Part shown: piece by piece, positions 5,960 through 21,195 of the stretch
Numbering within the stretch: position 1 is the first letter of the stretch
How the letters are laid out: every line of letters starts with the position of its first letter
Source: Sulfurihydrogenibium subterraneum DSM 15120
GTDB lineage: Bacteria > Aquificota > Aquificia > Aquificales > Hydrogenothermaceae
Direction of reading: 5' to 3'
DNA length: 64,000 nt
Assembly: GCF_000619805.1 (NCBI RefSeq)
Contig: NZ_JHUV01000009.1
Span: forward strand, 1-64,000
Notes under the pieces: generated by a model
What the model saw: the letters and a program-made list of their open reading frames with translations, nothing else
Database searches by the model: none
What the model was told of the DNA's origin: nothing
Translations under genes and position numbers: made by a program

Positions 5960-6463
5960 CTATTTATAACTTTCTTTAACTTTATTTAAATCGTGGACAA
6001 CTGCTGGTATTAATCTATAACCTTCTTCTTGTAATTTTGCAAGTTCTACAACACCTGCAGGGACAATTATAATAAAAGGTTGCATGTCTTCTTCTTTTAA
6101 ACCAAAAAATCTCATGGTATTTCTACACACGTAAATTTTAAGTCCGTAGCTTTGTGTCATTGATTTAAGCCTATCTATTACTTCTTTGTGTTTTTCGTAG
6201 TTCTTCTTTGCAAATATTAAAACTTCTGCACCGTGGCTTACTATTGCTAACTTGTACTCTCCCATTGGGTTAAACTCATCGTAGGCTTTGATAAAGTTAG
6301 ATATAAAGTTAGTAGCCATAACGCTGTTCGAAGGATTTTCAAGCGTCCAATCAAAAACAGCTTTAATTTTGTCTGGAAGTGTAGAGTCAAACTGTGGTTT
6401 TTCTTGAGAAAAGGATTTTAGAGAAAAAAGCAAAACTACAAAAAGCACAAAAAATTTTTTCAT
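5960..6463 (-). CDS. Exported DsrE-like protein (paralogue 1)
   Basis: A 167-residue protein with a signal peptide (residues 1-19, ending SFSQ) and a DsrE/DUF1791-like domain. It has LAIVSHGAEVLIFAKK, a single cysteine Cys113 in YGLKIYVCRNTM, then VPAGVVELAKLQEEGYRLIP. The cysteine aligns by context with Cys111 of the paralogue at 3524-3985, so a conserved periplasmic cysteine is the likely working residue. GGAGG lies 6 nt upstream of the ATG. A strong terminator separates it from the porin gene upstream, so it may be expressed at a lower level, by read-through or from its own promoter. Function in sulfur transfer is inferred from family and context. Confidence 0.75.
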   Translation of the reverse strand: MKKFFVLFVVLLFSLKSFSQEKPQFDSTLPDKIKAVFDWTLENPSNSVMATNFISNFIKAYDEFNPMGEYKLAIVSHGAEVLIFAKKNYEKHKEVIDRLKSMTQSYGLKIYVCRNTMRFFGLKEEDMQPFIIIVPAGVVELAKLQEEGYRLIPAVVHDLNKVKESYK

Positions 6464-6477
6464 GTCTTTCCTCCTAC

Positions 6478-6504
6478 AAAAAAACCCTTCCTAAAAAGGA
6501 AGGG
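6478..6504 (-). terminator. Rho-independent terminator after the porin gene
   Basis: On the minus strand CCCTTCC/GGAAGGG (arms 6498-6504 and 6485-6491) form a 7-bp stem with a 6-nt loop, followed by seven T (6484-6478). This is a textbook intrinsic terminator immediately after the porin stop codon. Confidence 0.88.
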
Positions 6505-6516
6505 CTGGTAAATCCT

Positions 6517-7791
6517 TCAGAATATTAATTGTAATCCAACACCTATGTAATCTCCAGCTTTATCTGTTCCGTACCAAGAGTATGGTGATTTCGAACTTCC
6601 ATCTTGGTTAGCATAATGAATATTTAACTTCATATTGTTTCCTTTTATATACCAGTTTAAACCAATATCAGTAACTTTAAACTTACCATCACCATTTGGA
6701 CTTGAATTACCACCAGCTTTTAATTCAGAATAGGTTATAGCAGGTTCTAAGATTGTTTTGTTCGGTAATGTAAAGTTATAGCCAGCTCTTATGTGCCATA
6801 CTTTGTCTTTGTAGTTTAAAGCTGAGTTGTCAAAGTTTCTTTTTAGCTCGTCATACTCTGCGTTAAATGTAAAGTCTTTGTAGTTTGCCAGTATATCAAA
6901 ACCAAGTAATTGATTCGATTTAAAATCATCTGTTTTTCCTTGATAAGCGTAGTTAATAGCTACGGTTGCTCCATTTCTTTTCCCAAAGTAGTTAACTTTA
7001 TATCCCATTCCGTATTTTTTCATTTCAGGGTCTCCAAGAGAAAGAGCTACTCTTGCAGTTAAGAGTGGATTCCAATTTTTATCAGTTTTGTATTTATCAG
7101 TGTTAAATACTCCAAAGTTGTAGTTTATTCCCCACTTTGCTTTTTCATCGTTGTAAAGACCACCAATATTTATACCTGTTTCACGACCTGGTCCTGTTTT
7201 GACTAAGTGCTGTCTTGGATAAAAGTTTGTAAGTGCCTTTTCAAAAGAAGTAACTTCAAATCCTGCTGTAATGCTTTCTCTACCTACCTGTGGTCTAAAA
7301 TAACCTACCGTAATGTTAGCCCAGTTTTTATGAAGTGCATAAGTGAAAAACGCATCCCAAAGATAGAATTGTTGATTGTTTGAGTTTAGCCCTACTAATC
7401 CTATGGATTTTGATGTTTTTGATTTATTTGGACTTTGAGCTGTTTGACTTTGAGCTAAAGCTGTATGTGAATCCAAACCAACGTTATCATAGGCAAACCA
7501 TACTCTCCAAGATAAATCTTCATTAATTTTACCTTGAAATCCTACTCTTGATCTTCTTAAAAGAAAATCGGCTCTGTTTTTTTCAGAAGTGAAATTTGTA
7601 CATTTGCCTGTATTGTCTATAGCTGTACATTCCACCCTATCCATCGTGTAAACGCCCCAGAGCTGGTTCATGAAGAAGATTTCTAACTCTTTTCCATCTC
7701 CAAAGTAAAACTTAGGAGCTGCTTGAGATGGGTTTGCCAGTAAGGTTGTTGCAGCCAATCCTACAGCTGTTGAGAGAACTACTTTTCTCAT
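6517..7791 (-). CDS. Outer-membrane porin (phosphate-selective porin O/P type)
   Basis: A 424-residue protein with a signal peptide (residues 1-24, ending PSQAA). The alternating aromatic/polar pattern is typical of a 16-strand beta barrel, and it ends in GLQLIF with the C-terminal Phe recognised by the BAM machinery. Sequence style resembles the OprO/OprP-like porins common in Aquificales and sulfur oxidisers. In this context it may admit thiosulfate or other sulfur oxyanions to the periplasmic Sox proteins (inference). GGAGG precedes the ATG, and the gene starts 25 nt after the DUF302 lipoprotein gene. The following terminator suggests the porin ends the strongly expressed part of the operon. 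Confidence 0.82.
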   Translation of the reverse strand: MRKVVLSTAVGLAATTLLANPSQAAPKFYFGDGKELEIFFMNQLWGVYTMDRVECTAIDNTGKCTNFTSEKNRADFLLRRSRVGFQGKINEDLSWRVWFAYDNVGLDSHTALAQSQTAQSPNKSKTSKSIGLVGLNSNNQQFYLWDAFFTYALHKNWANITVGYFRPQVGRESITAGFEVTSFEKALTNFYPRQHLVKTGPGRETGINIGGLYNDEKAKWGINYNFGVFNTDKYKTDKNWNPLLTARVALSLGDPEMKKYGMGYKVNYFGKRNGATVAINYAYQGKTDDFKSNQLLGFDILANYKDFTFNAEYDELKRNFDNSALNYKDKVWHIRAGYNFTLPNKTILEPAITYSELKAGGNSSPNGDGKFKVTDIGLNWYIKGNNMKLNIHYANQDGSSKSPYSWYGTDKAGDYIGVGLQLIF

Positions 7792-7816
7792 GATAACTAA
7801 CCTCCTTAAAGTGATT

Positions 7817-8446
7817 TTATTTGGTTATAGTATCTATTACTTTTTTTATTTCTCTGTCTAAGGTTTTTAATGCTTTTATTCCATCTGCGTCAAGGTTCCC
7901 CATGTACTTTATAGCGGTTGAAGGTTTAAAAACGCCTATAACTAATCTTCCATCTTTTTCATATGTATAGACTCTTATAGGGAATTGAGATGCAAGTTGT
8001 GGATTGTGCTTAAGTATTTTAGAGCATTCTGAAAGTTTACAGACTAAGTAAATGTGCATGTGCTTCCAAAAGTCTTTAACTCCTTGCTCTTCTACTCCTT
8101 TTGTAATGTTTAAAACGTGGACTATTTTAAAGTTTGCGTTTTCAAGCTCCGTTCTTAAAAGTAGGTCTAACTCTTGATAGGACATAGTGGTTGACCTTTC
8201 GTAAATTTCAGACATATCTTCGTCATCTTCACTACCTGATACGACAGCAGAAGATAAAGCAGAAAGGAAAGATTTTTTTTCTACAGGCTGTTTTTCTTTA
8301 TTTTCTTTTTGTAATGTAATCTTTTTTTGAGGCTTTTCATCATATCCTGTTCCTAAGTAGTCTCCTGTTTCAAAAGATACGTCTTTTATCGTTCCACCAC
8401 AGGAAAATAGTAAAATGCTACTACATGCTAAAATAAACTTTTTCAT
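7817..8446 (-). CDS. DUF302-domain lipoprotein
   Basis: I start this at ATG 8446, which overlaps the soxB stop as ATGA; another ATG lies two codons further upstream. The 209-residue product begins with a lipoprotein signal whose lipobox LLFSC puts the lipidated cysteine at residue 16. A charged linker to about residue 75 follows, then a DUF302 domain (MSYQELDLLL, FKIVHVLNITKGV, PIRVYTYEKDGRLVIGV). DUF302 proteins are small alpha/beta proteins of unknown mechanism. Tight coupling to soxB makes it a likely membrane-anchored accessory of periplasmic sulfur oxidation. The second DUF302 protein of the module (2939-3481) is soluble rather than lipidated. Confidence 0.78.
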   Translation of the reverse strand: MKKFILACSSILLFSCGGTIKDVSFETGDYLGTGYDEKPQKKITLQKENKEKQPVEKKSFLSALSSAVVSGSEDDEDMSEIYERSTTMSYQELDLLLRTELENANFKIVHVLNITKGVEEQGVKDFWKHMHIYLVCKLSECSKILKHNPQLASQFPIRVYTYEKDGRLVIGVFKPSTAIKYMGNLDADGIKALKTLDREIKKVIDTITK

Positions 8447-10176
8447 AGACATTTACCCTCACTTGTAGGACATCCACATCCAACGTCAAGTATTTTTACG
8501 TTGGATTTTAAAGGTGGATTTACGACTTTAACTCTTTTAAGATAATCAATTGTAATGTCGTAAACTGGTCTGAATTTCTTTGCGTTTTTACCTGCTCTAT
8601 ATAGATTGCCACCCCAAGATGCAACTACATAACTTCTGTTTGGGTCAAGGTCTTTTCCGTTTACTTTGATATTTGATATTCTTTGACCTGTAGGAGCTGA
8701 TATTTTTATCTCATAATCAAGTCCAAGAGTTCTACTCATATCTCCACCTTGCTGATAAAGAGGATTAGAGTTAAATACGTTGTCCGCTATGTCTTCTAAG
8801 AGGTTTTTAATCTGCTGACCTGTAAGTTCAAACCTGTAAACGTCAGGATATGTTATGGCTGTCATACTGTAAACGTCATCAACTGTAATATTTCCTCCCG
8901 GAAGAACGGTAGTTCCCCATCTATAACCGGGGTTAAACACTATTTCACAGTCTGTCTCTTCTTTTAAAGCGTCCATTATAACCCTATCAAAGGTTGAGTA
9001 GAATGTATCTCTCTTATACAGTATAGTTTGGGTTTTACCTATTACTTGAGAGAGCTGGCTTTCGTATGGTTTATAAACTTCTTCAACTAACTTTTCAACT
9101 TCAGGGTCTGGTTTTATAAAGTTTGATGCTACAGGATAGAGTTTAAATGCAAAATTTGTTATTTTTTTGTTTTTAACTTCTAAGTCAAGCCTTCCTAAAT
9201 ATTTACCGTGGCTTCCTGCTATTACTATTATCGTGTTATCAACTATTACAGGTTTTGGAGCTGGGTCGTGAGTGTGTCCTGATAAAATAACATCTATTCC
9301 TTTTACCATCTTAGCAAGTGCTTGGTCTAAGGTAAATCCATTGTGGGATAGTAAAACTACAACGTCAGCTCCTTTGCTTCTGACTTCATTAACAAATTTT
9401 TGTAATCTTTCTGGTTGAATACCAAACGTCCAACCTTCTATAAATTCTTTTGGGTTTGCAATAGGTGTGTAAGGGAAAGAGTTTCCTATAACGGCAACTT
9501 TTACTCCACCTACTTCTCTTATTGTATAAGGTTTAAATATAAGGTCTCCCCACATTTCATCTGCTATGTTTTGAGATATAAACTCTGCTTTTAAGTGTTT
9601 GTTTATAAGTTCTAAGACTCTGTCTTTTCCGTAAGTAAACTCCCAGTGTCCTACCATTATGTCTATACCAAGTGCATTTTGAGCGTCTACTATGGCTTTT
9701 CCTTGTGTGAAAAGACCTACTGCAGTTCCTTGCCAAGTATCTCCTGAATCCATAAATAAAACTTTGTCAGATCCTCTTTCTGCTTTTATACGGTTTACGA
9801 GAGATTTTATGTAAGATACACCACCCATTTTGCCATATTTTTTTGCCAATTCTTCAAAACCTATGTAAGTATCAAAGTAAGCTCTAATAGTGTTTGGTTT
9901 TATTCCATAGTACTGCATAAATGATTTTCCACATAAAAATCCCGGCGTTCCTATAAGTTCTTTTGCAGATATTAAAGTAGATGGCTCTCTCCAGTAAAGT
10001 GGTTTTAAGTGAGCGTGAAGGTCGCAGATGTGTAAAAGTGTAACGTTTCCAACCCCCTTAAATTCAAAAAAGCTTTCAGGGTTTAATTCGTTCAGCTTTG
10101 CAAAAACATTAGATGAGGTTAATGATAATCCCGAAATAGCCGCAAGGTGGAAAAGGTCTCTTCTTGATATGTTCAT
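8443..10176 (-). CDS. soxB: Thiosulfohydrolase SoxB
   Basis: SoxB hydrolyses the S-thiosulfonate bound to the SoxY carrier cysteine and releases sulfate in the periplasm. The 577-residue protein has a Tat-type signal (SRRDLF at 4-9). It then has the 5'-nucleotidase-like dinuclear Mn site: DLHAH (52-56), the SoxB signature GHWEFTYG (176-183) and LSGHTHDP. The C-terminal nucleotidase domain is complete. Length matches the family. It lies 17 nt after soxA, with GGAGG 9 nt before the ATG, and overlaps the next gene by 4 nt. No soxCD follows, so the sulfane sulfur of thiosulfate must be handled by another route, at least within this cluster. Confidence 0.97.
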   Translation of the reverse strand: MNISRRDLFHLAAISGLSLTSSNVFAKLNELNPESFFEFKGVGNVTLLHICDLHAHLKPLYWREPSTLISAKELIGTPGFLCGKSFMQYYGIKPNTIRAYFDTYIGFEELAKKYGKMGGVSYIKSLVNRIKAERGSDKVLFMDSGDTWQGTAVGLFTQGKAIVDAQNALGIDIMVGHWEFTYGKDRVLELINKHLKAEFISQNIADEMWGDLIFKPYTIREVGGVKVAVIGNSFPYTPIANPKEFIEGWTFGIQPERLQKFVNEVRSKGADVVVLLSHNGFTLDQALAKMVKGIDVILSGHTHDPAPKPVIVDNTIIVIAGSHGKYLGRLDLEVKNKKITNFAFKLYPVASNFIKPDPEVEKLVEEVYKPYESQLSQVIGKTQTILYKRDTFYSTFDRVIMDALKEETDCEIVFNPGYRWGTTVLPGGNITVDDVYSMTAITYPDVYRFELTGQQIKNLLEDIADNVFNSNPLYQQGGDMSRTLGLDYEIKISAPTGQRISNIKVNGKDLDPNRSYVVASWGGNLYRAGKNAKKFRPVYDITIDYLKRVKVVNPPLKSNVKILDVGCGCPTSEGKCL

Positions 10177-10193
10177 TGCTGTTTATCCTCCTG

Positions 10194-11000
10194 TTATCTT
10201 ACTAATCCTGGAGCTTCTATAGTTGATCCGTTTGCTAAAGATGTAACATAAAGCTCTAAAGCGACCATCTCTTTTGACCCAAGAGGTAAAACTTTCATAC
10301 TGGCTTGAGACATGCATTGTTGAAATCTTTGTTCTATAGTAACTACCTTACTTTGAGTCATTCTATAACCTGGCCAGTGAGCTGCGGCGTTTGTTCCCTT
10401 TATTCCGTTGTATTCAGCTCCTAATGGGTTTAATTTCTGCATTCTTAAAACCATTCCGGCTGCATTTTCGTGACAGACTGCACAGGAAAGATTTCTTTTT
10501 CCTCTTTTAAGATTAAAGACATACTTTCCATATTCGTAATATTCTTTTACTACTGAATTGGAAGATGTATCTACGTTTATTTTTTCTCCAGAAGCTATGT
10601 ATTTAAGGTATGTTAGTAGAGCTGTGTTTTCTTGACTTTTTAGTTCAAATGGTTTATCTACTCCTTGGTTTAGCTTCTGACACATCTGTATTCTCTGTTG
10701 TAATGATATTACAGCGTTTAATTTTGGTTCATACTTTGGATAAGTTCCTACTACCTTTTTTAATTTTTCTTCACTGTGGCAAGAAGCACAGGATTTGTTT
10801 GATGTTCCCATAGGTTTGTTAAATAATGCACCACCAACTTCTTGAGCAAAAACTTCTCCTGGGTTTATACCTGATTTATAAAGTGCCAAGTCTTCCTCTG
10901 ATATTGCCTGTCCTGCCTCTTGTGATATAGCTTTATTTACACTGTATGTAGCTATCGCTAACGTAAGTCCAAAAAGCAAGACTTTTCCCTTTAATCTCAT
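10194..11000 (-). CDS. soxA: L-cysteine S-thiosulfotransferase subunit SoxA
   Basis: SoxA with SoxX oxidatively couples thiosulfate to the SoxY cysteine. The 268-residue protein has a signal peptide (about 1-26) and two haem c motifs, CASCH (71-75) and CAVCH (173-177), so it is the di-haem SoxA type. Cys107 (IQMCQKL) and Cys229 (FQQCMSQ) are the expected cysteine haem ligands, the latter being the persulfide-forming active-site residue. GGAGG lies upstream of the ATG. A terminator-like hairpin separates it from soxZ, so soxAB may be made at a lower level than soxXYZ. Confidence 0.96.
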   Translation of the reverse strand: MRLKGKVLLFGLTLAIATYSVNKAISQEAGQAISEEDLALYKSGINPGEVFAQEVGGALFNKPMGTSNKSCASCHSEEKLKKVVGTYPKYEPKLNAVISLQQRIQMCQKLNQGVDKPFELKSQENTALLTYLKYIASGEKINVDTSSNSVVKEYYEYGKYVFNLKRGKRNLSCAVCHENAAGMVLRMQKLNPLGAEYNGIKGTNAAAHWPGYRMTQSKVVTIEQRFQQCMSQASMKVLPLGSKEMVALELYVTSLANGSTIEAPGLVR

Positions 11001-11032
11001 AGCTGGTATTCCTCCTTGTTAGAAAATTTTAG

Positions 11033-11054
11033 AAAAGAGGGCTTTTAAGCCCTC
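11033..11054 (-). terminator. Intercistronic hairpin between soxZ and soxA
   Basis: Arms 11047-11054 and 11037-11044 give an 8-bp GC-containing stem (GAGGGCTT/AAGCCCTC) with a 2-nt formal loop, followed on the minus strand by TTTTC. It sits inside the sox operon, so it probably works as a partial terminator or RNA-processing/stability element rather than a full stop. Confidence 0.65.
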
Positions 11055-11062
11055 AAAAGAGA

Positions 11063-11392
11063 TTAATCTACTTTTATATCTATTACTTTCTCTGTTACAT
11101 CACCTTTGTTATCTTTCCAGACAATTTTTAAAGGAGCTGATTTTGTAGCTTTTACATAGAAAGATATAAACGGGTTTGCACTAACAGATCCAGATACTTC
11201 CATCCATGTTATCTTCTCATCTCCATAGTAAACTTCTACACTTGTGATGTGATGTGCTGCAATATATTTCCCAGACTCTTTATCTTTTACCAGTCCAGTA
11301 TCCATAGGATGCATTATTACAGAGTCAACTCTTACTAAATCATCTTTCTTATATTCTTTTGGATTTATTTTTACTAAAGCTTGTCTTGCCAT
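11063..11392 (-). CDS. soxZ: Sulfur carrier complex subunit SoxZ
   Basis: SoxZ is the partner of SoxY in the periplasmic SoxYZ carrier. The 109-residue protein lacks its own signal peptide, as expected because SoxZ is exported with SoxY. It shows the SoxZ immunoglobulin-like pattern: IMHPMDTGLVKD near residues 26-37, then VEVYYGDEKI and a Val/Lys-rich end. It follows soxY by 22 nt with its own ribosome-binding site. Length is normal for the family. Confidence 0.95.
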   Translation of the reverse strand: MARQALVKINPKEYKKDDLVRVDSVIMHPMDTGLVKDKESGKYIAAHHITSVEVYYGDEKITWMEVSGSVSANPFISFYVKATKSAPLKIVWKDNKGDVTEKVIDIKVD

Positions 11393-11414
11393 TGTTTAAT
11401 CCTCCTTTTTTTAA

Positions 11415-11885
11415 TTATCCACATCCACCGATTGTAACTTTAACCGGTTTTTGTGCTTTTATAAAGCTACCGTCTGCAAGTTGAGCAACCGCAACTACGT
11501 TCATAGTTTCTGCAAGCCTTATTCTTGTAGATATGTAAGCTTTTCCATTTACAGGAGTAAAGTAAACACTCATAGTTCTTGCATTGTGGTTTTTGTCTGC
11601 GAGAATATGTATAGCTTTTACTTGTTCAATAGGTAGTTCTACTTCTACAGTGACAGGCACAACTGCTCCGTTTTCTGCAATTTCAGGAGCTACGAGTTTA
11701 ACTTTGTCTGAGTCTGATACAGCTTTTCCACCTGTTATCTCTTTTAGAGCCTCATCAAAAGGCTTCTTAGGTGGAGGGTTGTCAACTAATTCTGCTGCTC
11801 TAACATTCGTAAACACACCACTTCCTAAAACAGCTGTTGATACAGCTGCTACTGACGTTGCTTTTAAAAATTCTCTTCTGTTCAT
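11415..11885 (-). CDS. soxY: Thiosulfate carrier protein SoxY
   Basis: SoxY carries the sulfur substrate on a cysteine at the end of a flexible C-terminal arm. The 156-residue protein begins with a Tat-type signal (NRREFLKATSVAAVS) and ends in VTIGGCG, with the carrier residue at Cys155. It forms SoxYZ with the following gene and is loaded by SoxAX and unloaded by SoxB. A ribosome-binding site precedes the ATG. It is the key substrate-binding protein of the cluster and shows no anomalies. Confidence 0.97.
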   Translation of the reverse strand: MNRREFLKATSVAAVSTAVLGSGVFTNVRAAELVDNPPPKKPFDEALKEITGGKAVSDSDKVKLVAPEIAENGAVVPVTVEVELPIEQVKAIHILADKNHNARTMSVYFTPVNGKAYISTRIRLAETMNVVAVAQLADGSFIKAQKPVKVTIGGCG

Positions 11886-11895
11886 AAAATACCTC

Positions 11896-12333
11896 CTATT
11901 TTTGTTTCATAAAGTATTCATCCATTGTCATCTCTTTATAGCTTCCAGATGCAAAGTAATTAAGTATTTTAACAAAGTCTTTCTCTTCCCAGGCTCCAAA
12001 AATCGTTTTTATTTTACTTCCATCTGGATTTAAAAAGTAAAACATCGGAGTTCCTACAAAGCCATACTTTTTCCTTACTTCTATTCCTTCGTTGCTACAC
12101 TTTCTAATCTTTACTGGAACAAAATGATTATTAAGCAGTTCTTCTACTCTTTTACTTTCAAATACTGTAAAGTCCATAATATCACAGTAATGGCAAGAAG
12201 GAGAGTATATGTAGATAAATACAAGTTTATTCTCCTTCTTTGCTTTTTCAAAAGCTTGGTTATAAGGAACCCAGTTTATCTGGGCATTAGAAAAACCAAT
12301 TAATACAAGTAAAGCAAGTAAAACCTTTTTCAA
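11896..12333 (-). CDS. Exported thioredoxin-like protein (SoxW-type)
   Basis: A 145-residue protein with a signal peptide (1-17) and a thioredoxin fold: KLVFIYIYSPSCHYC with the redox pair Cys47/Cys50 (C-H-Y-C), then the cis-Pro loop GTPMFYF. Thioredoxins of sox clusters (SoxW) keep SoxYZ cysteines reduced or reverse dead-end disulfides in the periplasm. Its position between soxX and soxY, 4 nt after soxX, supports that role. A similar sequence could also be called a DUF255/thioredoxin_7 protein, so I leave the gene symbol open. Confidence 0.82.
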   Translation of the reverse strand: MKKVLLALLVLIGFSNAQINWVPYNQAFEKAKKENKLVFIYIYSPSCHYCDIMDFTVFESKRVEELLNNHFVPVKIRKCSNEGIEVRKKYGFVGTPMFYFLNPDGSKIKTIFGAWEEKDFVKILNYFASGSYKEMTMDEYFMKQK

Positions 12334-12337
12334 CTTA

Positions 12338-12865
12338 TCACTCCAAGCTTAAAAGATAAGCAGTTAGCTGGCATACTTCTTCGGCTGTTAACTGTCCTGT
12401 TGTGAGCTGAACTGTCATTATGTTATAGTATGGTACACTTTGAAGTTCTTTTGGGATTAAAATTCTTCCGTCGGCAATTTTTTGATGAAGCCAGTCAACT
12501 GTTTTTGGCTCTCCTCTGTAATTTGGAGCTTTAAACAGTCCGTTTCTATAACCTGTAAGATCTGGTCCTATGTTTCCACAACCTTTTGCTTCAGGGGCAC
12601 AGTGACAGGCAACACAGTTTCCTTTTCTCACTTCCATAAATACCTTTTTTCCTTTTTCAGCCAATTTTTTTATGCTTTCTTTATCTGATAAATTACAAGA
12701 AGGGTCGATAGCGTATAATCTTGGTTCAGGAGGTACATCTTTTAGCATCATACTTTTTGCTTCTGGATTTTCTATACCAGCATCTTGAAGGGTTAAAGCA
12801 AATGCTAAAGCTGAAATCCCAGTTATAGCAGCTGCTGTTGTTAGTAGTAATTTTTTAAATTTCAA
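12338..12865 (-). CDS. soxX: Mono-haem cytochrome SoxX
   Basis: SoxX is the electron-accepting haem c subunit of the SoxAX complex. I use the TTG at 12865, because GGAGGA lies 5 nt upstream and the resulting N-terminus (K-F-K-K-L then a hydrophobic run to ALAFA) is a proper signal peptide. The upstream ATG would add 14 unlikely residues. The 175-residue product has one CVACH motif (residues 84-88), followed by the SoxX-typical cysteine-rich CAPEAKGCGNIGPDLTGY and a distal Met in YNIMTVQ. It is the first gene of the sox operon and is preceded by a sigma-54-like promoter. Confidence 0.93.
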   Translation of the reverse strand: MKFKKLLLTTAAAITGISALAFALTLQDAGIENPEAKSMMLKDVPPEPRLYAIDPSCNLSDKESIKKLAEKGKKVFMEVRKGNCVACHCAPEAKGCGNIGPDLTGYRNGLFKAPNYRGEPKTVDWLHQKIADGRILIPKELQSVPYYNIMTVQLTTGQLTAEEVCQLTAYLLSLE

Positions 12866-12902
12866 CTTAATCCTCCTGCATAAGTATTTTGTATTATACT
12901 TA

Positions 12903-12919
12903 CGCAACTTTTATGCCAA
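12903..12919 (-). promoter_or_regulatory. Sigma-54-type -24/-12 promoter of the sox operon
   Basis: The minus strand reads TTGGCATAAAAGTTGCG, against the sigma-54 consensus TTGGCAC-N5-TTGCW. GG (12916-12917) and GC (12904-12905) are exactly 10 nt apart. Transcription should start near 12892, giving a leader of about 27 nt carrying the soxX ribosome-binding site. An alternative sigma-70 reading (TTGGCA with TATAAT at 12893-12898) has only a 15-17-nt-range spacer at best and is less convincing. A sigma-54 activator is encoded 4.6 kb upstream. Confidence 0.7.
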
Positions 12920-12959
12920 ATTGTAAACATGTATTTACAATTGTTAAAATCTCTTAACA
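12919..12959 (-). promoter_or_regulatory. Two matched palindromes upstream of the sox promoter
   Basis: Site 1 is TTGTAAA-N6-TTTACAA (12921-12940, arms extend to 12919 and 12942). Site 2 is TGTTAA-N6-TTAACA (12942-12959). Both fit TGTWAA-N6-TTWACA, and their centres (12930.5 and 12950.5) are exactly 20 bp apart, two helical turns on the same DNA face. They sit just upstream of the -24 box, the place for a dimeric activator or repressor pair. The NtrC-type regulator at 17515-18828 is the obvious candidate ligand (inference). Confidence 0.65.
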
Positions 12960-12966
12960 TGTCCAT

Positions 12967-13000
12967 AAAAGGACAGAAACTGTCCCAAATGGAACAGTTT
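12967..13000 (-). terminator. Terminator with a competing hairpin after the flavoprotein gene
   Basis: In minus-strand order there are three segments: AAACTGTTCC (13000-12991), GGGACAGTTT (12986-12977) and CTGTCC (12976-12971), followed by TTTTA. Segments 2 and 3 form a terminator hairpin with a short T-run. Segments 1 and 2 can instead form a 10-bp stem with one G-U pair. Segment 1 overlaps the flavoprotein stop codon. This is either a plain terminator or a translation-sensitive attenuator. Confidence 0.6.
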
Positions 13001-14267
13001 AACCAAACATCTCTCTCCATAACCCTTTTGCCCATTCGTGATATCTTTTGACTGTAGATTCTCTTCTTGTGTTGTCTTCTCTGTGAATAGGTGTAATTAC
13101 ATTTTTTTCTCTGTTTATCTTGAAGCTTGTCTCTGACATTATAGCTTCTTTATCACTAACCATAGAGTAGCAAAGTACCATTAAAAGCTCTTCTTGTTTT
13201 AATTTTTTACCTGTTATTCTTTCCGCTATGATGTTTGCTACTATCTTGCCTTGCATATTTGCACCAAAACCAGACTTTGGTAAGAATGTTCTTGCAGAGT
13301 CTCCTATAACGAAAACGTTTGGAACTTTTGTCTCAAATGTAAACGTTTCAACTTCTACCCATTTTTGATTGTTTTCTAAAAATCCTATTTTTTCTAAGAG
13401 TTTTGATGCTTTCATTGGTGGTATTACGTTAGCGAGATCAAATTTAAAGTCTCCGTTTGTTGTTTTTACTACATTATTTGCAGTATCTATCTCCTTAACA
13501 GTTGTTCCAGTAATGTAATCTGCGTATCCTTTGTAAAGTTCGTAGTAAGCTTTCATGAATCCTTCTGAGTTAATGACAGGTCTTTCGTTTGCATCTATAA
13601 AGTATAGATGGGCTTTGAGTTTTCTTTTTGTTATGTAGTTTAGTATAAGTGCAGCTCTTTCGTAAGGAGCTGGAGGACATCTATAAGGGTAAGAGGGGAC
13701 AGTTATAACAATATCACCACCATCAAAATTCTCTAACAGCTTTTTTAAATAAAGATGTTCTCCGCCGGGTTTAAAAGCAGGTGGATACTTTACAAAGAAA
13801 TCTTTCTGAGATTTGTCTATATCGTAGGAGATTCCGGGAGATAAAACTAAAAAGTCGTAAGATATTTTATCGTAAGGAGTTATAACTAACTTTTTGTCTA
13901 AGTCTACATCCATTACTTTCGTATTTATAAAATCTATGTTATACTTAGCCTTTAAAGGTTCATATGGAAAACAGAGATTACCAAATTCGTAAAAGTCTCC
14001 TAAATATAGATTACTCATAGGACAGGATACAAAGAAAGGATTTTTGTCTATTAGTGTGATAGATATGTCTGGTAGTAGTTTTCTTAGCTGTTTTGCTGTA
14101 GATACTCCACCGTATCCTCCACCTACTATAACTACTTTTGCCGATTTTGTAGCCTTAAAATCCGCTTCGTTTGCAAGAGATACATTTGGCATTAGATTAG
14201 AAGCTGCTAATGCAGCACTGCCAGCTAAGAACTGTCTTCTGTTAACATTTAATTTGTTCTTTAACAT
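12999..14267 (-). CDS. FccB-like sulfide dehydrogenase flavoprotein (intact)
   Basis: A 422-residue FAD protein of the flavocytochrome c sulfide dehydrogenase/SoxF family, which oxidises sulfide in the periplasm. It has a Tat-type signal (NRRQFLAGSAAL) and an FAD-binding GGGYGG (49-54). The family cysteines are in SCPMSNLYLG (Cys82), YRCPPAPYER (Cys197) and VLCYSMV (Cys366); the last two match the redox-active disulfide of FccB. A second FAD contact is VFVIGDSA. No FccA cytochrome is adjacent; instead a Rieske-type gene overlaps its start by 26 nt and may supply the electron acceptor. It is the last gene before the sox promoter. Confidence 0.88.
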   Translation of the reverse strand: MLKNKLNVNRRQFLAGSAALAASNLMPNVSLANEADFKATKSAKVVIVGGGYGGVSTAKQLRKLLPDISITLIDKNPFFVSCPMSNLYLGDFYEFGNLCFPYEPLKAKYNIDFINTKVMDVDLDKKLVITPYDKISYDFLVLSPGISYDIDKSQKDFFVKYPPAFKPGGEHLYLKKLLENFDGGDIVITVPSYPYRCPPAPYERAALILNYITKRKLKAHLYFIDANERPVINSEGFMKAYYELYKGYADYITGTTVKEIDTANNVVKTTNGDFKFDLANVIPPMKASKLLEKIGFLENNQKWVEVETFTFETKVPNVFVIGDSARTFLPKSGFGANMQGKIVANIIAERITGKKLKQEELLMVLCYSMVSDKEAIMSETSFKINREKNVITPIHREDNTRRESTVKRYHEWAKGLWREMFG

Positions 14268-15049: not shown

Positions 15050-15559
15050 TTAACCAAACATATCTCTGAATAAACCTTTTGCCCATTCTATATAAGCTTT
15101 GTAGTTTGATTCTGTAGCGTTTTCGTCAACTTTTGGATCCGCAAAGGAGAATCCTTTTTGAGGATCATAAGCGTATTTAACGTCTATCCATCCAGCTTTT
15201 TCTTTTTCAACAGCAGAATAACATAATGTTTCTGGAGATTGCCATGGAATATCTTTACCATTTAACTTAGCTACTATTAGTTTCGCAATGTAATGACCTT
15301 CTGAATTTGAAGTGTTTCCACTTTTTGAGAATGGCTGATTTCTTGCATCTCCTGTTACGTATACTCTTTCATCTCCCATAAAGTGATACTTCAACGGATC
15401 AATAGATGGCCATTTTTCACCTTTTTTAACAAGTCCAGCTTTATAAACAATTCCAGCAGCTTTACAAGTTGGATAAATACTTCCATCTGTAAAATCCAAA
15501 TCTCCCCATTGTTCTGTAATAATTTTCTTTTTATACGTTGAGTGAGAAATTAATGCCAT
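15050..15559 (-). pseudogene. C-terminal fragment of an FccB-like flavoprotein, cut off by an IS
   Basis: This 169-codon ORF carries the last 152 residues of a second FccB-like flavoprotein, including YVTGDARN (FAD contact) and the redox cysteine in TLCYSAVE. Its first 17 codons come from the end of the inserted element plus the duplicated target. An SD-like GAGG lies 7 nt before the ATG, only 2 nt after the transposase stop codon, so the fragment can probably be translated. Joined to the N-terminal fragment (16487-17347) with the insertion removed, it restores a continuous frame of about 435 residues, close to the 422-residue intact paralogue. The fragment lacks the N-terminal FAD-binding motif and is unlikely to work alone. 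Confidence 0.88.
15508..15534. repeat. 27-bp direct repeat, left copy (probable target-site duplication)
   Basis: Positions 15508-15534 and 16498-16524 are identical over 27 bp and directly abut the two ends of the insertion sequence. Deleting the element plus one copy restores the flavoprotein reading frame exactly. Confidence 0.88.
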
Positions 15560-15561
15560 AA

Positions 15562-16398
15562 TTAAACCTCACAGTACCTGAAAAAGCTATAACCTATTGC
15601 ATAAGCATACAAATAGGAAAGAAGCGTTATACCTTTTCTCCATCTACTAAGAGCGTTAAATTGTTTTAACCTTGAAAATATGCTTTCAATAATCTGCCTC
15701 TGAGCTTTATCCTCTTTTGTCTCACATACGATAACATTCTCACATCCTCTATACCCTTTGTCCCCTATTACTTCAAAAAAGCTTATAAGTCTTTTAAACC
15801 AAATACTGGTTTTTGCTCTTAATCTAAAAGATTTAACTTCATGATAACTTGCTGGATGAAACCAAATATCATAAACTCTTCCCTTTGTATCACAAATTAC
15901 CATAACAAGCACTCCATAGTATATCTCTTCAAATTTTACTCTTTTTTTGTAGTGTTGACTGTATAGATTTCTTTTTCTTCTTACCCAAAACATCTTTCCA
16001 TTAAATCTCTTTATTCTCTGGGTTCTTGCTCTGTTTAAATTAGCTACTGGAAGTATTGTACCATCTACTATAAGTCTTGGTTTTTTATTAGATACCAAAA
16101 CTTCTATAATTACAGACAGTATTCTCATTTGTAGATATATTCTAAGCAGTTCGTATATTCTTTTAATTCTTGACTTTCTAAATATGTGATAAGACTTTAT
16201 AGAGTCATCAATAAATTGTCTTGCTATTTTCAAAACAGGCATTCCAGTCATGTATGATAAGATGAAAGCTGCTGCTATTTCTTCATCGGTAATTTTTGGT
16301 TTTCTACCAGCATTAGATTTAGCTGTATTTTTATAAAAAGAAACTTTAAATGATTGAAAATTTTTGAGAAGTATGTTATAAAACTTTTCCAGTTGCAT
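15562..16398 (-). CDS. DDE transposase of the insertion sequence
   Basis: This 278-residue protein has an N-terminal helical DNA-binding part with GRKPKITDEEIAAAFILSYM (about residues 32-51). A DDE catalytic domain follows: IVDGT (first Asp), VIGDKGYRG (second Asp) and RQIIESIFSRLK (Glu). The pattern resembles IS5/IS982-type transposases. Start ATG 16398 has GGGAGG 6 nt upstream, next to a hairpin that overlaps the likely promoter. The stop codon lies 2 nt before the ATG of the downstream flavoprotein fragment. Confidence 0.9.
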   Translation of the reverse strand: MQLEKFYNILLKNFQSFKVSFYKNTAKSNAGRKPKITDEEIAAAFILSYMTGMPVLKIARQFIDDSIKSYHIFRKSRIKRIYELLRIYLQMRILSVIIEVLVSNKKPRLIVDGTILPVANLNRARTQRIKRFNGKMFWVRRKRNLYSQHYKKRVKFEEIYYGVLVMVICDTKGRVYDIWFHPASYHEVKSFRLRAKTSIWFKRLISFFEVIGDKGYRGCENVIVCETKEDKAQRQIIESIFSRLKQFNALSRWRKGITLLSYLYAYAIGYSFFRYCEV

Positions 16399-16408
16399 TT
16401 TTGACCTC

Positions 16409-16450
16409 CCAAAAGTAGTTTGGGTATATTATAACCCGAGCTACTTTTGG
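16409..16450 (-). promoter_or_regulatory. Hairpin covering the transposase promoter and flanking its RBS
   Basis: Arms CCAAAAGTAG (16409-16418) and CTACTTTTGG (16441-16450) pair perfectly, with inner GGGT/ACCC. The loop region contains TATAAT on the minus strand, a likely -10 box. RNA started there lacks the first arm. RNA reading in from outside would contain both arms and fold next to the GGGAGG ribosome-binding site, which would damp transposase synthesis, as known for other insertion sequences. Confidence 0.55.
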
Positions 16451-16486
16451 CTTTTTATTAGAAATAAAATTGAAAAAATGAATTTC

Positions 16487-17347
16487 TCACTCAAGGTATT
16501 GTTCTGTAATAATTTTCTTTTTATTTACATCAACAGCTTTTATAGTTGTGTTTGGATAATACTCTATATAATCTTTTAGTTTGTCATAAGCAGTTTGGAA
16601 CAGCTTTGCTTTTACAGGTGCTTGAGCATGTGGGTCTACAAGTACAACTTTACCTTTTATCTTGTTTTCTTTGAAGTACCATGCTATTAATGCAGCTCTT
16701 TCATATGGACCTGGTAAACATCTATAATCCATCCCTGGAGGTACTGTTAAAGCAAAAGTACCTTCTTCAAATTCCTGAATTTTTCTTTTTAATGCTAAAT
16801 GCTCAGAACCTGGAATAAATGCAGCCGGATACCTTTTTCTTGCTATCTCAACATCCTTTGGATCTTTTATCCATTCAGAATATTCATAGGCTATACCAGG
16901 AGCAAGTACTAAGATGTCATAGCTAAGATATCCTTTGTCTGTATAAACTCTTCTTTTTTCCCTATCAACATCGTAAACGGTTGCATTACAGAAATGATAT
17001 CCATACTTATCAGCAGGTTTTAAAAAGTCATGTATAAGGAACTCAAAAGGAAGAAGGTCAACTAACCATAAATTACTCGTTGGACAAGAGAAAAATTCCG
17101 ATCTTTTATCAACCAAGACTACATCGATATTACTATCTTGAGTTTTGATGTACTTTGCAATAGTTAATCCTGACCAACCAGCACCAACAATTACAACTCT
17201 TGGAGAATTGGGACTTGGTTTTTGGAATTTAAGTTCTTCTTCCGAAACATGAGAAGCAAAAACCTTGTTAGAAAAGCCAGTTTCTAAACTTGCTGCAACA
17301 ATTCCTACACCTGCTGCTTTGAATAAATCCCTTCTGTTTAAACCCAT
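16487..17347 (-). pseudogene. N-terminal fragment of an FccB-like flavoprotein, interrupted by an IS
   Basis: The fragment encodes residues 1-283 of an FccB-like flavoprotein followed by three codons and a stop supplied by the insertion sequence. It has a Tat-type signal (NRRDLFKAAGV), FAD-binding GAGWSG (55-60), SCPTSN (Cys88) and YRCLPGPYER (Cys210, one of the two redox cysteines); the partner cysteine is on the downstream fragment. A good promoter and GGAGG precede the start, so the fragment is probably still transcribed and translated. The intact paralogue at 12999-14267 may cover its function. Confidence 0.88.
16498..16524. repeat. 27-bp direct repeat, right copy (probable target-site duplication)
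   Basis: Identical to 15508-15534; it abuts the right terminal inverted repeat of the insertion sequence. Confidence 0.88.
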
Positions 17348-17514: not shown

Positions 17515-18828
17515 TTACAAAAGACCAAAGTTTTTCATCTTGGTTCTAAGTTGTTTTCTTGATATTCCAAGTCTTTGAGCTGCTTTTGTTTGATTAAAAT
17601 TTTCTTCCTGTAAGACTTTTAGTATTATGTTTTTTTCTATCTCGTAAAGATTTAAACTTTTTTCCAAATTTATCTCTGATACTAAAGGCTTTTCTTTTAT
17701 TCTTTGAGGTAAATGTTGAGAGGTTATTATCTCTCCTTGGCAAAGAACTACTGCCCTTTCTATTATGTTTTCAAGTTGTCTCACATTTCCAGGCCAGTCG
17801 TATTCCATAAGAATCTCAAGAGCTTCTTCATCTATATCGTATATGTTTTTATTGTTTATCTTACTAAATTTCTCTATAAATCTTTTTACAAGTAGAGGAA
17901 TGTCTTCTTTCCTTTCTCTTAAAGGTGGGATTTTTAAGTGAATTACGTTTATTCTATAAAATAGGTCTTCTCTAAATTCTTTGTTTTCTATCATCTGTTC
18001 AAGATTTCTGTTAGTTGCAGATATAACTCTACATCTCATCTTTATCAAAGATGTTCCACCTACTCTGTAAAACTCTCTTTCTTGTAGTACTCTTAAAAGT
18101 TTTGCCTGCATAAAAAGAGGCATCTCTCCTATCTCATCTAAAAATAAAGTTCCTTCTCCTGCTAACTCTATCTTTCCTATCTCTCTGTTTCCAGCTCCTG
18201 TATAAGCTCCTTTTTCGTGTCCAAACAGCTCATTTTCAAAAAGTTCTGATGGTATTGCAGAGCAGTTAATAGGTACAAAAGGATTTTTCGCCCTTCTTGA
18301 CCTTTTATGAATAGCTTTTGCCACAAGCTCTTTTCCTGTTCCACTTTCTCCTTCTATTAAAATGTAAGACTCACTTTTACTAACTATTTCTATTTCGTTG
18401 AATAACTCTTTCATTTTTTTACTTTTTCCGATAATACCCTCAAATTCTTCTACTTCAAATGGGTTAGATTGTTTTTCTTTGTAAAACTGAATAAGTTTTA
18501 TAAGGTTGTCTGTATCTATAGGTTTTGGTATGTAATGATTAGCTCCTTTTTTTACAGCTTCTACAGCTCCATTTATAGACCCGTAGGCTGTTATGATTAT
18601 AAAAGGTGTTATACTATCTTTTTTTCTAAACGCTTCTAAAATCTCTATTCCAGTTCCATCTTCTAATAGATAGTCAGACAAGATTAGATTATAGTTATTT
18701 GTATTTAACTTTGTAAGAGCTTCTGACTTACTTTTTGCGGTATCAACTTCATAACCCTCTTTTGTAAGGACTGTTTTAATAATTTTTAAAATACTTTCTT
18801 CATCGTCTATCAACAAAACTTTAAACAT
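17515..18828 (-). CDS. Sigma-54-dependent response regulator (NtrC family)
   Basis: I start at ATG 18828, with AGGAG 8 nt upstream; the GTG nine bases earlier would sit on that site. The 437-residue protein has three domains. The receiver has phospho-acceptor Asp52 in LILSDYLLEDG. The AAA+ domain has Walker A GESGTGKE and the sigma-54 contact loop GAYTGA at about 207-212, a Tyr variant of GAFTGA. The C-terminal Fis-type helix-turn-helix is NFNQTKAAQRLGISRKQLRT. It overlaps the kinase gene by 8 nt. It is the natural candidate activator for the sigma-54-type promoter of soxX (inference). Confidence 0.93.
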   Translation of the reverse strand: MFKVLLIDDEESILKIIKTVLTKEGYEVDTAKSKSEALTKLNTNNYNLILSDYLLEDGTGIEILEAFRKKDSITPFIIITAYGSINGAVEAVKKGANHYIPKPIDTDNLIKLIQFYKEKQSNPFEVEEFEGIIGKSKKMKELFNEIEIVSKSESYILIEGESGTGKELVAKAIHKRSRRAKNPFVPINCSAIPSELFENELFGHEKGAYTGAGNREIGKIELAGEGTLFLDEIGEMPLFMQAKLLRVLQEREFYRVGGTSLIKMRCRVISATNRNLEQMIENKEFREDLFYRINVIHLKIPPLRERKEDIPLLVKRFIEKFSKINNKNIYDIDEEALEILMEYDWPGNVRQLENIIERAVVLCQGEIITSQHLPQRIKEKPLVSEINLEKSLNLYEIEKNIILKVLQEENFNQTKAAQRLGISRKQLRTKMKNFGLL

Positions 18829-20389
18829 CTTTATCACTCCTGTCTATTGGTATTTCTATAATAAATTTAGTGTATTTCCCATATACAGATTCAACATTTA
18901 CAGTTCCACCGTGTAAAAAGATTATTTTATAAACCATTGGAAGTCCAAGTCCTGTTCCTTTTGGTTTTGTTGTGAAAAACGGCTTAAATATCTTTCCTTT
19001 GTTTTCTTCTTTTATTCCTATTCCGTTATCTTCCACTATTAATCTTATTTTATCTTTATTTTTCAAGAATCCTGTTGAAATTTTTATAACAGGGTTTTCT
19101 GTATTTTTTTCTCTTATTGCATCTATTGAGTTTAATATGAGGTTAACTAAAACTTGTTTAATTAAATTTTGGTCTATAAAGGTTTTTGGAAGGTTATTAT
19201 CAAGTTTTAAATCTACCTTAATGCCGTAATCTTCACAGTCGTATATTAACAATGCGATAGAATTTTTTATAACCTCGTTTAAATCTTCTTGGGAAAATTT
19301 AGGTTCTATAAGTTTTGAGAAGTTTAAAAATGAAACGGTCATATCGTTTAATCTGTAGCTTTCTTCTTTTATGATTTTACCAAACTCTTTTATAATTTCA
19401 TCATTTGCGTTGTTTTTTATGTAGTTGGCAGCGTTTGAGATTGAGTAAAGGGCATTTTTTATTTCGTGGGCAATCTTTGCACTCATCTCTCCCATTGCAG
19501 CCATACAGCTTAGGGTCTCTCTTTCTTTATAAGCCTCTTCAAGTTTATTTATGTAATCGTTTAAAGAAGAGAGCATCATATAAAAACTGTAAGTAAGATT
19601 TTCTATTTCATCTCCTGATAACTTTGAAAAAACTTCACACTTAGGACATTCTTTTATAGACTTTTCACCTAAAGAAAAAAGTATCTCCTTTCCATTTTTT
19701 GAGCTAAGCCAACACTCTTCTGTAATTCCTTTTACACAGATTACATCAGATTTAGTTTTTGGTTTAAACTCTACAGCTTCTTTAAGATTGTAAAAGCCAG
19801 TCCAAAAAAGGTTTAGTATACTTTCTTTTAGTTTTATAAGAGGATTTACTAAAACTGTTGAGATAAAGAAAGTTCCTAAAAAAGATGCCACTATTATAAA
19901 TCCTACTATTAAAGAAAGAGGATAGATTATTTTCTTTATATCGTTGATAATGTCCTGTTTTATCTCTTTAATATCATACAGAACAACAACCTTTCCAACA
20001 GGCTCTGAGTCAACTGAAAGGTTATACTCTATTTTTTGTAAATCTTTTTGTGGAAAGTTAGACTCTGATTTACCTAAATACTCTAAATCTGTACTTCCTA
20101 TTACTACTTCGTTTTTGTCTAAGATAAACACATTTTTAACAGATTTTACACTTTTTAAAAATCCTACCAACTCATCTATCTTTTCAAGATTTTTTACTAT
20201 GATTTTATCTTTGTAGCTTTCTGATAGATTTTTAATGTTTTCTTCTAATGATTTTATTCTGTCTTCTAAAAGTCTTTCCTGAAAGTTATATACTGTAAAA
20301 AGTATAGACCCTACAAGGACTGCTAAAATGTAAACAGATATTGATAAAGATGTTTTTAACTTTATAGACAGATTATTTATGTACTTCAT
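18821..20389 (-). CDS. Membrane sensor histidine kinase with a cysteine motif
   Basis: A 522-residue kinase. It has an N-terminal membrane helix (about 13-33), a periplasmic sensor region (about 35-155), a second helix (about 156-182) and a cytosolic linker. The HisKA domain has phospho-acceptor His308 in KIAHEIKN, and the ATPase domain has N, G1 (VEDNGIGI) and G2 (GTGLGLPM) boxes. The linker carries Cys218, Cys226-Trp227, Cys248 and Cys251 (C-x7-CW and CPKC), a pattern seen in some redox- or metal-responsive kinases. The gene overlaps the PhnD-like gene by 4 nt and the regulator gene by 8 nt, so the three form one operon. Confidence 0.92.
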   Translation of the reverse strand: MKYINNLSIKLKTSLSISVYILAVLVGSILFTVYNFQERLLEDRIKSLEENIKNLSESYKDKIIVKNLEKIDELVGFLKSVKSVKNVFILDKNEVVIGSTDLEYLGKSESNFPQKDLQKIEYNLSVDSEPVGKVVVLYDIKEIKQDIINDIKKIIYPLSLIVGFIIVASFLGTFFISTVLVNPLIKLKESILNLFWTGFYNLKEAVEFKPKTKSDVICVKGITEECWLSSKNGKEILFSLGEKSIKECPKCEVFSKLSGDEIENLTYSFYMMLSSLNDYINKLEEAYKERETLSCMAAMGEMSAKIAHEIKNALYSISNAANYIKNNANDEIIKEFGKIIKEESYRLNDMTVSFLNFSKLIEPKFSQEDLNEVIKNSIALLIYDCEDYGIKVDLKLDNNLPKTFIDQNLIKQVLVNLILNSIDAIREKNTENPVIKISTGFLKNKDKIRLIVEDNGIGIKEENKGKIFKPFFTTKPKGTGLGLPMVYKIIFLHGGTVNVESVYGKYTKFIIEIPIDRSDKDV

Positions 20390-21195
20390 TTTAAAACAGG
20401 GAATAACATAAGGACTTTTCTGTAATTTTTTATAATTTCAAACATTTTAGGCTGAGGTTTTACAAATCCATCAACTTCCATCTGTTTTAAAGTGTTCTCA
20501 TCTGCAGAAAAAATAGCATTTTCTATATCTTTGTAAAGTTTTTTATCGATGTTTTTTGAAACCATAATTATATGTCTTGGAAATGAAGGTGATTTTGCTA
20601 TAACTTTAACATACTGCTGATAATCTTTTATACTCTCTTCTTTTACTCCCGCTACATCAGCTATAGAGGATATAAGGGCAAGTATAGCTCCTTTATCTGT
20701 TCCAGAGCTCCATATATTAATAACATCATGTTGAGTTATTCCTGCGTTTGCAAGCATGTAAAGGGGCATCACACAGTTGCTCATACATATAGGACTTCCA
20801 AGGGTTATCTTTTTACCTTTAACGTCTTCTATACTATTTATAGGACTGTCTTTCCTTACTATTAAAACACCGTTTTCTACCGCTTTACCGTTGATTTTCA
20901 TTACAGCGACAGCTTCTACATTATACTGTTTTTTAAGCTCAAAATAAACAACAGAACATCCTACTGCTATCTGTGCTTCTTTCTTTTTAAACATTTGAAA
21001 AAGTTTTTCTATATCTTCTACTATTATCACATCAACACTTTTGTTTATCTTTTCAGACAGATACCTTGCAAAAACACTGTACCTTTTATACTCTTTTATA
21101 GGGTCTCCATAAGATAAAACTGCAAACGTTAACTTTTCTTGAGCAAAGGATGACGAAAGAAAAAGAAGCAATAAAATTAATACCTTTTTAAGCAT
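20386..21195 (-). CDS. PhnD-like periplasmic substrate-binding protein
   Basis: A 269-residue exported protein (signal peptide 1-18) of the PhnD/TtrS-sensor type: FAVLSYGDP near the mature N-terminus, AQIAVGCSVVYF, and GVLIVRKDSPINSIEDVKGKK. An unusual C-x3-C (Cys137, Cys141) sits in LGSPICMSNC, where phosphonate-binding relatives have a Ser/Gly-rich loop; Cys80 is a third cysteine. No ABC permease or ATPase adjoins. It overlaps the kinase gene by 4 nt, so it is probably a sensor subunit rather than a transporter component, comparable with the PhnD-like domain of the tetrathionate kinase TtrS. TATAAT lies 11 nt before the ATG with no clear Shine-Dalgarno. Confidence 0.82.
   Translation of the reverse strand: MLKKVLILLLLFLSSSFAQEKLTFAVLSYGDPIKEYKRYSVFARYLSEKINKSVDVIIVEDIEKLFQMFKKKEAQIAVGCSVVYFELKKQYNVEAVAVMKINGKAVENGVLIVRKDSPINSIEDVKGKKITLGSPICMSNCVMPLYMLANAGITQHDVINIWSSGTDKGAILALISSIADVAGVKEESIKDYQQYVKVIAKSPSFPRHIIMVSKNIDKKLYKDIENAIFSADENTLKQMEVDGFVKPQPKMFEIIKNYRKVLMLFPVLK

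Follow-up and report, generated by a model that had tools for sequence, protein, structure and literature searches.

In the window analyzed here (the whole stretch of 64,000 nucleotides from Sulfurihydrogenibium subterraneum DSM 15120), the sox operon is preceded by a predicted sigma-54 promoter of the TspR type, into which a pair of palindromes, A1 and A2, may have been added as operators for a second, dimeric regulator, most likely a repressor. For this reading as a whole, the chances are judged to be about even. The regulation of sox is known in few organisms (PMC10318464).

Architecture of the sox Promoter

The sequence-only reading of this DNA had described two TGTWAA-N6-TTWACA palindromes of like architecture, 20 bp apart, upstream of sox, and both were found exactly as claimed (Table 1). 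A1 is larger than first described; its core, TGTAAA-N6-TTTACA, covers positions 12922-12939. Both palindromes are held by the segment 12920-12959 (ATTGTAAACATGTATTTACAATTGTTAAAATCTCTTAACA), with a distance of 20 bp between their centres. At their junction, the sequence TTAACA-AT-TGTAAA also makes a Crp/Fnr-like box, centred at 12940.5.

The sigma-54 consensus TGGCAYRNNNNTTGCW, in which the GG and GC doublets stand 10 bp apart, is matched by TGGCATAAAAGTTGCG at 11 of its 12 specified positions. Since the -24/-12 element TGGCATAAAAGTTGC starts 2 bp downstream of the palindromes and the transcription start is predicted near 12893, A1 and A2 are centred at about -38 and -58. The positions given by the sequence-only reading, and the sigma-54 element that it had placed next to them, were thus right. 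A1 extends from about -49 to -28, which is where sigma-54 polymerase binds, and A2 occupies the remaining space up to the next upstream palindrome, B2. A role of the A stems as a terminator was rejected, the stems being short and AT-rich, and an Rfam search of the sox promoter region returned nothing relevant. A search of genome contigs with SoxX gave a single short match, from an unrelated organism.

Table 1. Features of the sox locus and their positions in the window.
Feature	Position	Strand	Remarks
Remaining sox operon	5960-12333	-	Genes for thioredoxin-like protein, soxY, soxZ, soxA, soxB, lipoprotein-like, porin-like and DsrE-like proteins
soxX, first gene of the sox operon	12338-12868	-	TTG start after GGAGG; TIGR04485 above cut-off
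Predicted transcription start	near 12893	-	Downstream of the -24/-12 element
Sigma-54 -24/-12 element	12904-12918	-	TGGCATAAAAGTTGC; conserved at soxX in relatives with intact promoter
Palindrome A1	12920-12941	.	ATTGTAAA-CATGTA-TTTACAAT; 8+8 arms; centre 12930.5 (-37.5)
Palindrome A2	12942-12959	.	TGTTAA-N6-TTAACA; 6-bp arms; centre 12950.5 (-57.5)
Enhancer site B2	12960-12975	.	TGTCCATAAAAGGACA; TGTCC-N6-GGACA; centre about -75; position conserved in relatives
Enhancer site B1	12981-12996	.	TGTCCCAAATGGAACA; centre about -96; conserved; inverted repeat extends over 12978-12999
Flavocytochrome-c-type sulfide dehydrogenase gene, upstream	12999-14267	-	Stop codon abuts B1
NtrC-type response regulator, TspR-like	17515-18837	-	Receiver, sigma-54 AAA+ and Fis-type HTH domains; likely ligand of B
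Membrane histidine kinase	18821-20389	-	Likely partner of the regulator
PhnD-type periplasmic binding protein	20386-21195	-	Likely sensor subunit (by inference)

Further upstream, a second flavocytochrome-c-type gene is interrupted by an insertion sequence (15508-16524; DDE transposase gene at 15562-16398, inverted ends of 22 bp), so that its parts now lie at 16487-17347 and 15050-15559. An exact direct repeat borders the insertion sequence; at 27 bp, it is unusually long for a target duplication.

The Adjacent B Pair as Family-Wide Enhancer

A role of the A palindromes as the defining control sites of the sox promoter was not supported. The family-wide enhancer is the adjacent B pair (TGTYCC-N4-GGRACA), which is contiguous with the A pair directly upstream and was overlooked in the first reading. 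The B sites have the TGT-N10-ACA geometry of NifA-type upstream activating sequences (UAS), while the A sites, with TGT-N12-ACA, do not.

SoxX was present in 27 of the 41 Hydrogenothermaceae genomes searched. The promoter comparison left out G027, where the promoter is cut off by a contig edge, and G038, where other sequence has taken the place of the soxX upstream region. One or more B sites were found upstream of a -24/-12 element at soxX in 25 genomes of eight genera, i.e., at every intact promoter examined; in G005, where the soxX promoter is divided between contigs, the B pair and the -24/-12 element were both found in the other part. The sites are usually paired, with centres mostly 21-23 or 32-35 bp apart (about two or three helical turns), and, over 44 sites, they are uniform from one sox locus to the next. 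Four genomes (G002, G003, G004 and G007) have one B site within the two-mismatch limit and a second one that appears degenerate by eye. In the comparison of the soxX upstream regions, B was kept at the same distance in other congeners, which do not have A. The strict tandem pattern occurred in 8 of 136 Aquificota genomes, all of them Hydrogenothermaceae, and never in the control. Exact B matches at other places in other genomes, away from sox and the small RNA described below, lay mostly inside coding sequences and are attributed to chance or coding.

The enhancer bound by TspR at sox of Acidithiobacillus caldus is TGTCCCAAATGGGACA (PMC6335251). B1 differs from it by one base and B2 by more, and the exact 16-mer or near-identical forms occur at sox of relatives. 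Judged by site consensus, the B pair is a TspR-type enhancer, because the published TspR UAS equals the B consensus. The sequence GGGACAG-TTT-CTGTCC-TTTT between the B sites could be drawn as a terminator for the upstream gene, but this was rejected as the reason for the conservation of B, since relatives retain the sites at other spacings and have no T-run there.

A TspR-Like Regulator as Probable Ligand of B

Sigma-54-dependent two-component genes, a feature of TspR-type sox control, lie beside sox in the window (17515-20389) and are adjacent to it in many genera, in which the regulator gene ends directly upstream of soxX or just before the B sites. The domain order of the regulator (receiver-AAA-HTH_8) agrees with that of A. 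caldus TspR, the likeness being one of domain order. Orthologues were present in 26 of the 41 genomes, with identities of 62-100%, compared with mostly 41-53% for paralogues. All 25 genomes with a B site at sox carry an orthologue, in G015 as a pseudogene; regulator presence is confounded with sox presence, and only G038 separates the two. This genome has soxX without its native promoter and no regulator orthologue, and an orphaned B pair with a -24/-12 element lies on another of its contigs. The NtrC-type regulator encoded at 17515-18837 is thus the likely ligand of the B pair.

The locus resembles the TspS/TspR system of A. caldus (PMC6335251) in having an NtrC-type regulator and a kinase by sox, a sigma-54 element and an upstream palindrome of the same consensus. 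It differs from that system in several respects: its B sites are paired in helical phase, a PhnD-type binding protein is encoded among the sensor genes, a DsrE-porin operon and a candidate small RNA appear to be served by the enhancer as well, and A has been added in two species. Known so far from an acidophilic proteobacterium, the TspR-type enhancer is thereby extended to those Hydrogenothermaceae examined that have sox, with an exact consensus and geometry for the sox enhancer.

A1 and A2 might themselves be extra, weaker sites of this TspR-like regulator, given that both motifs begin with TGT and end with ACA and that NtrC-type regulators form higher oligomers. This is very unlikely: the half-sites differ (TGTWAA versus TGTYCC), the outer triplets are spaced 2 bp differently (TGT-N12-ACA versus TGT-N10-ACA), and the B sites show the uniformity described above. 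Because of these differences in half-site and half-site spacing, the NtrC-type regulator, which had been named earlier for gel-shift analysis with the palindromes, does not appear to be the natural ligand of A, and its binding there was ruled out by geometry as the main reading.

Conservation of the A Palindromes

A genome search for the A motif had been suggested earlier. TGTWAA-N6-TTWACA has only three copies in the 1.61 Mb genome, two of them at sox, but there was no enrichment over the backwards control pattern, which also gave three. Since the genome count equals the control count, a lone A site is unremarkable and it is the tandem arrangement that is unusual; for the same reason, no A regulon is visible. 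The third copy lies between a porin gene and pstS, is hairpin-like, has no link to sulfur genes and has a counterpart in the closest relative, G034; a regulon defined by A was rejected. When the intergenic region was simulated with a first-order Markov model, two TGTWAA-N6-TTWACA sites were obtained in none of 400,000 copies. When any sequence was allowed, 20 of 60,000 simulated copies had a like pair of 6+6 palindromes.

In G034, none of the 87 bp of the A-containing stretch differed from the genome studied here (G000). These 87 bp form the start of the intergenic region and hold B1, B2, A2, A1 and TGGCAT; the changes between the two promoters are confined to the -24/-12 spacer and the leader. 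In the flanking genes, 46 of 218 fourfold sites differ (21%). At this rate, the 40 bp of the A region would remain unchanged with p of about 8e-5, which makes constraint on the A stretch in both genomes likely. The earlier reading would have been refuted if neither palindrome were conserved in close relatives; both are identical in G034. Local exchange of DNA between the two close genomes could be another cause of the identity, and diverged sequence flanks the identical stretch on both sides.

Apart from G034, no intact A pair was found at sox in the other family genomes examined, and it was absent at sox in the other genera of Hydrogenothermaceae. Among the five other congeners, G035 and G037 have one half of each A palindrome left, G036 and G039 have a different sequence in place of the A stretch, and G038 has lost the promoter with the replaced upstream region. 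On this comparison, the A pair is a lineage-specific addition, present in two species, to a conserved TspR-type sigma-54 promoter.

The A pair could also be fortuitous, i.e., an AT-rich spacer that is palindromic by chance, with the identity between the two species due to recent exchange or to constraint on the spacer or on TTTACA. The equal motif and control counts and the half-sites left in G035 and G037 would agree with such an origin. It is nevertheless quite unlikely in view of the rarity of such pairs in the simulations, both for the A motif itself and for palindromes of any sequence, and of 87 identical bp against a neutral divergence of 21% with diverged sequence on either side.

Proposed Role of the A Pair

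The sequence-only reading had noted that A lies too close to the promoter for a sigma-54 activator and that a second regulator, even a repressor, was possible. This view was reasonable and is supported by the constraint seen in the sister genome. In the mechanism proposed here, the sox operon would be driven by the sigma-54 promoter and switched on by the TspR-type regulator of the NtrC family at B (-75/-96); activation by this route is well supported by the site and gene comparisons. A1 and A2 would be later, lineage-specific operators between enhancer and promoter for a second, dimeric DNA-binding protein, which would span about -69 to -28 along a single face of the helix. Its effect would most likely be negative, either as a repressor at the docking site of RNA polymerase or through the enhancer loop. 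We infer that a protein binds A, that this protein is a dimer and that it represses.

A repressor is considered likeliest, followed by an architectural helper, because A1 sits at the polymerase site and proteins bound in the spacer cut looping. In a sigma-54 system, looping is hindered by proteins bound in the spacer, and tandem operators placed there quench expression, the effect being greatest close to integer helical turns (PMC4740811). The sox promoter resembles these quenching enhancers in that its putative operators lie downstream of an NtrC-type enhancer and upstream of a sigma-54 promoter, in tandem at about two helical turns (PMC4740811). The published constructs differ in that they used synthetic operators and known repressors, and quenching was strongest there at 23 bp, compared with the spacing of 20 bp here. 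The sox promoter would thus be a case of a second operator pair fitted into an enhancer loop.

The sequence of the A sites is close to the TyrR box, TGTAAA-N6-TTTACA, which is defined by at least 10 of 12 matches (PMC4374768). A1 matches at 12 of 12 positions and A2 at 10 of 12, with the conserved G and C 14 bp apart, and TyrR represses from promoter-overlapping boxes (PMC4374768). Unlike in TyrR systems, the promoter here is of the sigma-54 type and no TyrR-type protein (ACT/PAS-AAA-HTH_50) was found among the six sigma-54 activators of the genome. None of the six reached the Pfam cut-off for HTH_50, and TyrR was rejected as ligand of A. Crp/Fnr was also rejected, as the occurrence of the family does not track A: one HTH_Crp_2 protein is shared by every congener, those lacking A included, and additional copies are present in G000 and G036 but absent from G034. 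Neither the six sigma-54 activators nor the Crp/Fnr proteins of the genus thus yielded a candidate for the protein at A.

At many sigma-54 promoters, IHF acts between enhancer and promoter. A1 and A2 might accordingly bind an architectural or helper protein, either a Crp-type activator or a bending protein like HU or IHF, which would help the enhancer loop to form. With B2 as close as -75, a bend could help; TTTACA near -24 at the sox, small RNA and dsrE promoters would fit a positive cofactor of the regulon, and the junction of the A sites resembles a Crp/Fnr box. A helper is nonetheless unlikely, since A1 reaches to -28, within the usual footprint of the sigma-54 holoenzyme, neither A site fits the IHF consensus, and congeners without A hold B at the same distance.

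Other Promoters with B Sites and a Candidate Small RNA

The B pattern TGTYC-N6-GRACA has seven matches in the genome, six of which fall into three promoter regions, each with a -24/-12 element: those of sox, of a DsrE-porin operon and of a promoter beside an O-methyltransferase gene. The DsrE-porin operon codes for a DsrE-like and a porin-like protein and resembles, in the type of its genes, the final two genes of the sox operon. It has three B sites (-123, -145 and -210) before the sigma-54 element TGGCATATTTTTTGAT; its promoter lies outside the window (G000 C8:349,558-349,790; L211, L216). At the third promoter, a single B site before TGGCATAAATTTTGT adjoins the O-methyltransferase gene.

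Downstream of TGGCATAAATTTTGT there is no gene; instead, a stretch of about 80 nt follows that closes with a strong hairpin and U-run, also outside the window (G000 C8, about 285,340-285,432; L064, L119, L201). The unit occurs in 15 genomes of six genera (further loci: L184-L187, L189-L192, L196, L197, L199, L203, L124 and L125). In it, CUGCUGCU and CCUACCUCCUCC form short single strands, and CCUACCUCCUCC is complementary to a Shine-Dalgarno sequence; the terminator follows, with a stem sequence that varies between genera. Neither a match to an Rfam family nor a conserved reading frame was found, and the available sections of a survey of Aquificales non-coding RNAs centred on Aquifex aeolicus (PMC4227106) do not mention it. 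The unit is therefore regarded as a candidate sigma-54-dependent small RNA. It resembles Qrr-type sigma-54-dependent RNAs in its NtrC-type enhancer pair, -24/-12 element and terminator (PMC10162802) and differs from them in sequence, phylum and regulator, as well as in being without an Rfam match. Within the literature searched and Rfam, its gene would be the first on record to have an enhancer in common with sox.

Half-sites of A (TTTACA/TGTAAA) were present near -24 in 11 of the 13 regulon promoters of the genus, with 1.9 expected. In all six small RNA promoters of the genus, TTTACA is invariant and stands at -17, while the sequence around it varies; it precedes TGGCAT by 17-18 bp at small RNA loci (L201, L196, L197, L199, L124 and L125) and at sox (L006 and L024). 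This recurrence is suggestive only, because the promoters are not independent by descent. TTTACA may mark one half of the site for the A factor, a contact of the polymerase or the -35 element of an overlapping promoter.

Taken more broadly, the observations might be described as a thiosulfate regulon of Hydrogenothermaceae with TspR-type enhancers, a new sigma-54 small RNA family with anti-Shine-Dalgarno segments and, at the sox promoter of two species, inserted tandem loop operators as a natural counterpart of synthetic quenching enhancers. This broader view is put forward tentatively, with rather less than even confidence.

Two relatives show changes at these loci. The sox locus of G015 appears to be decaying, with several stop codons in both soxX and the regulator gene (C11:304,900-313,700; L030, L174), but it has retained the small RNA gene. 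The B pair of G034 is parted from the small RNA promoter by an IS982-type element (L065:4059-5016), a natural separation of enhancer and promoter by about 1 kb.
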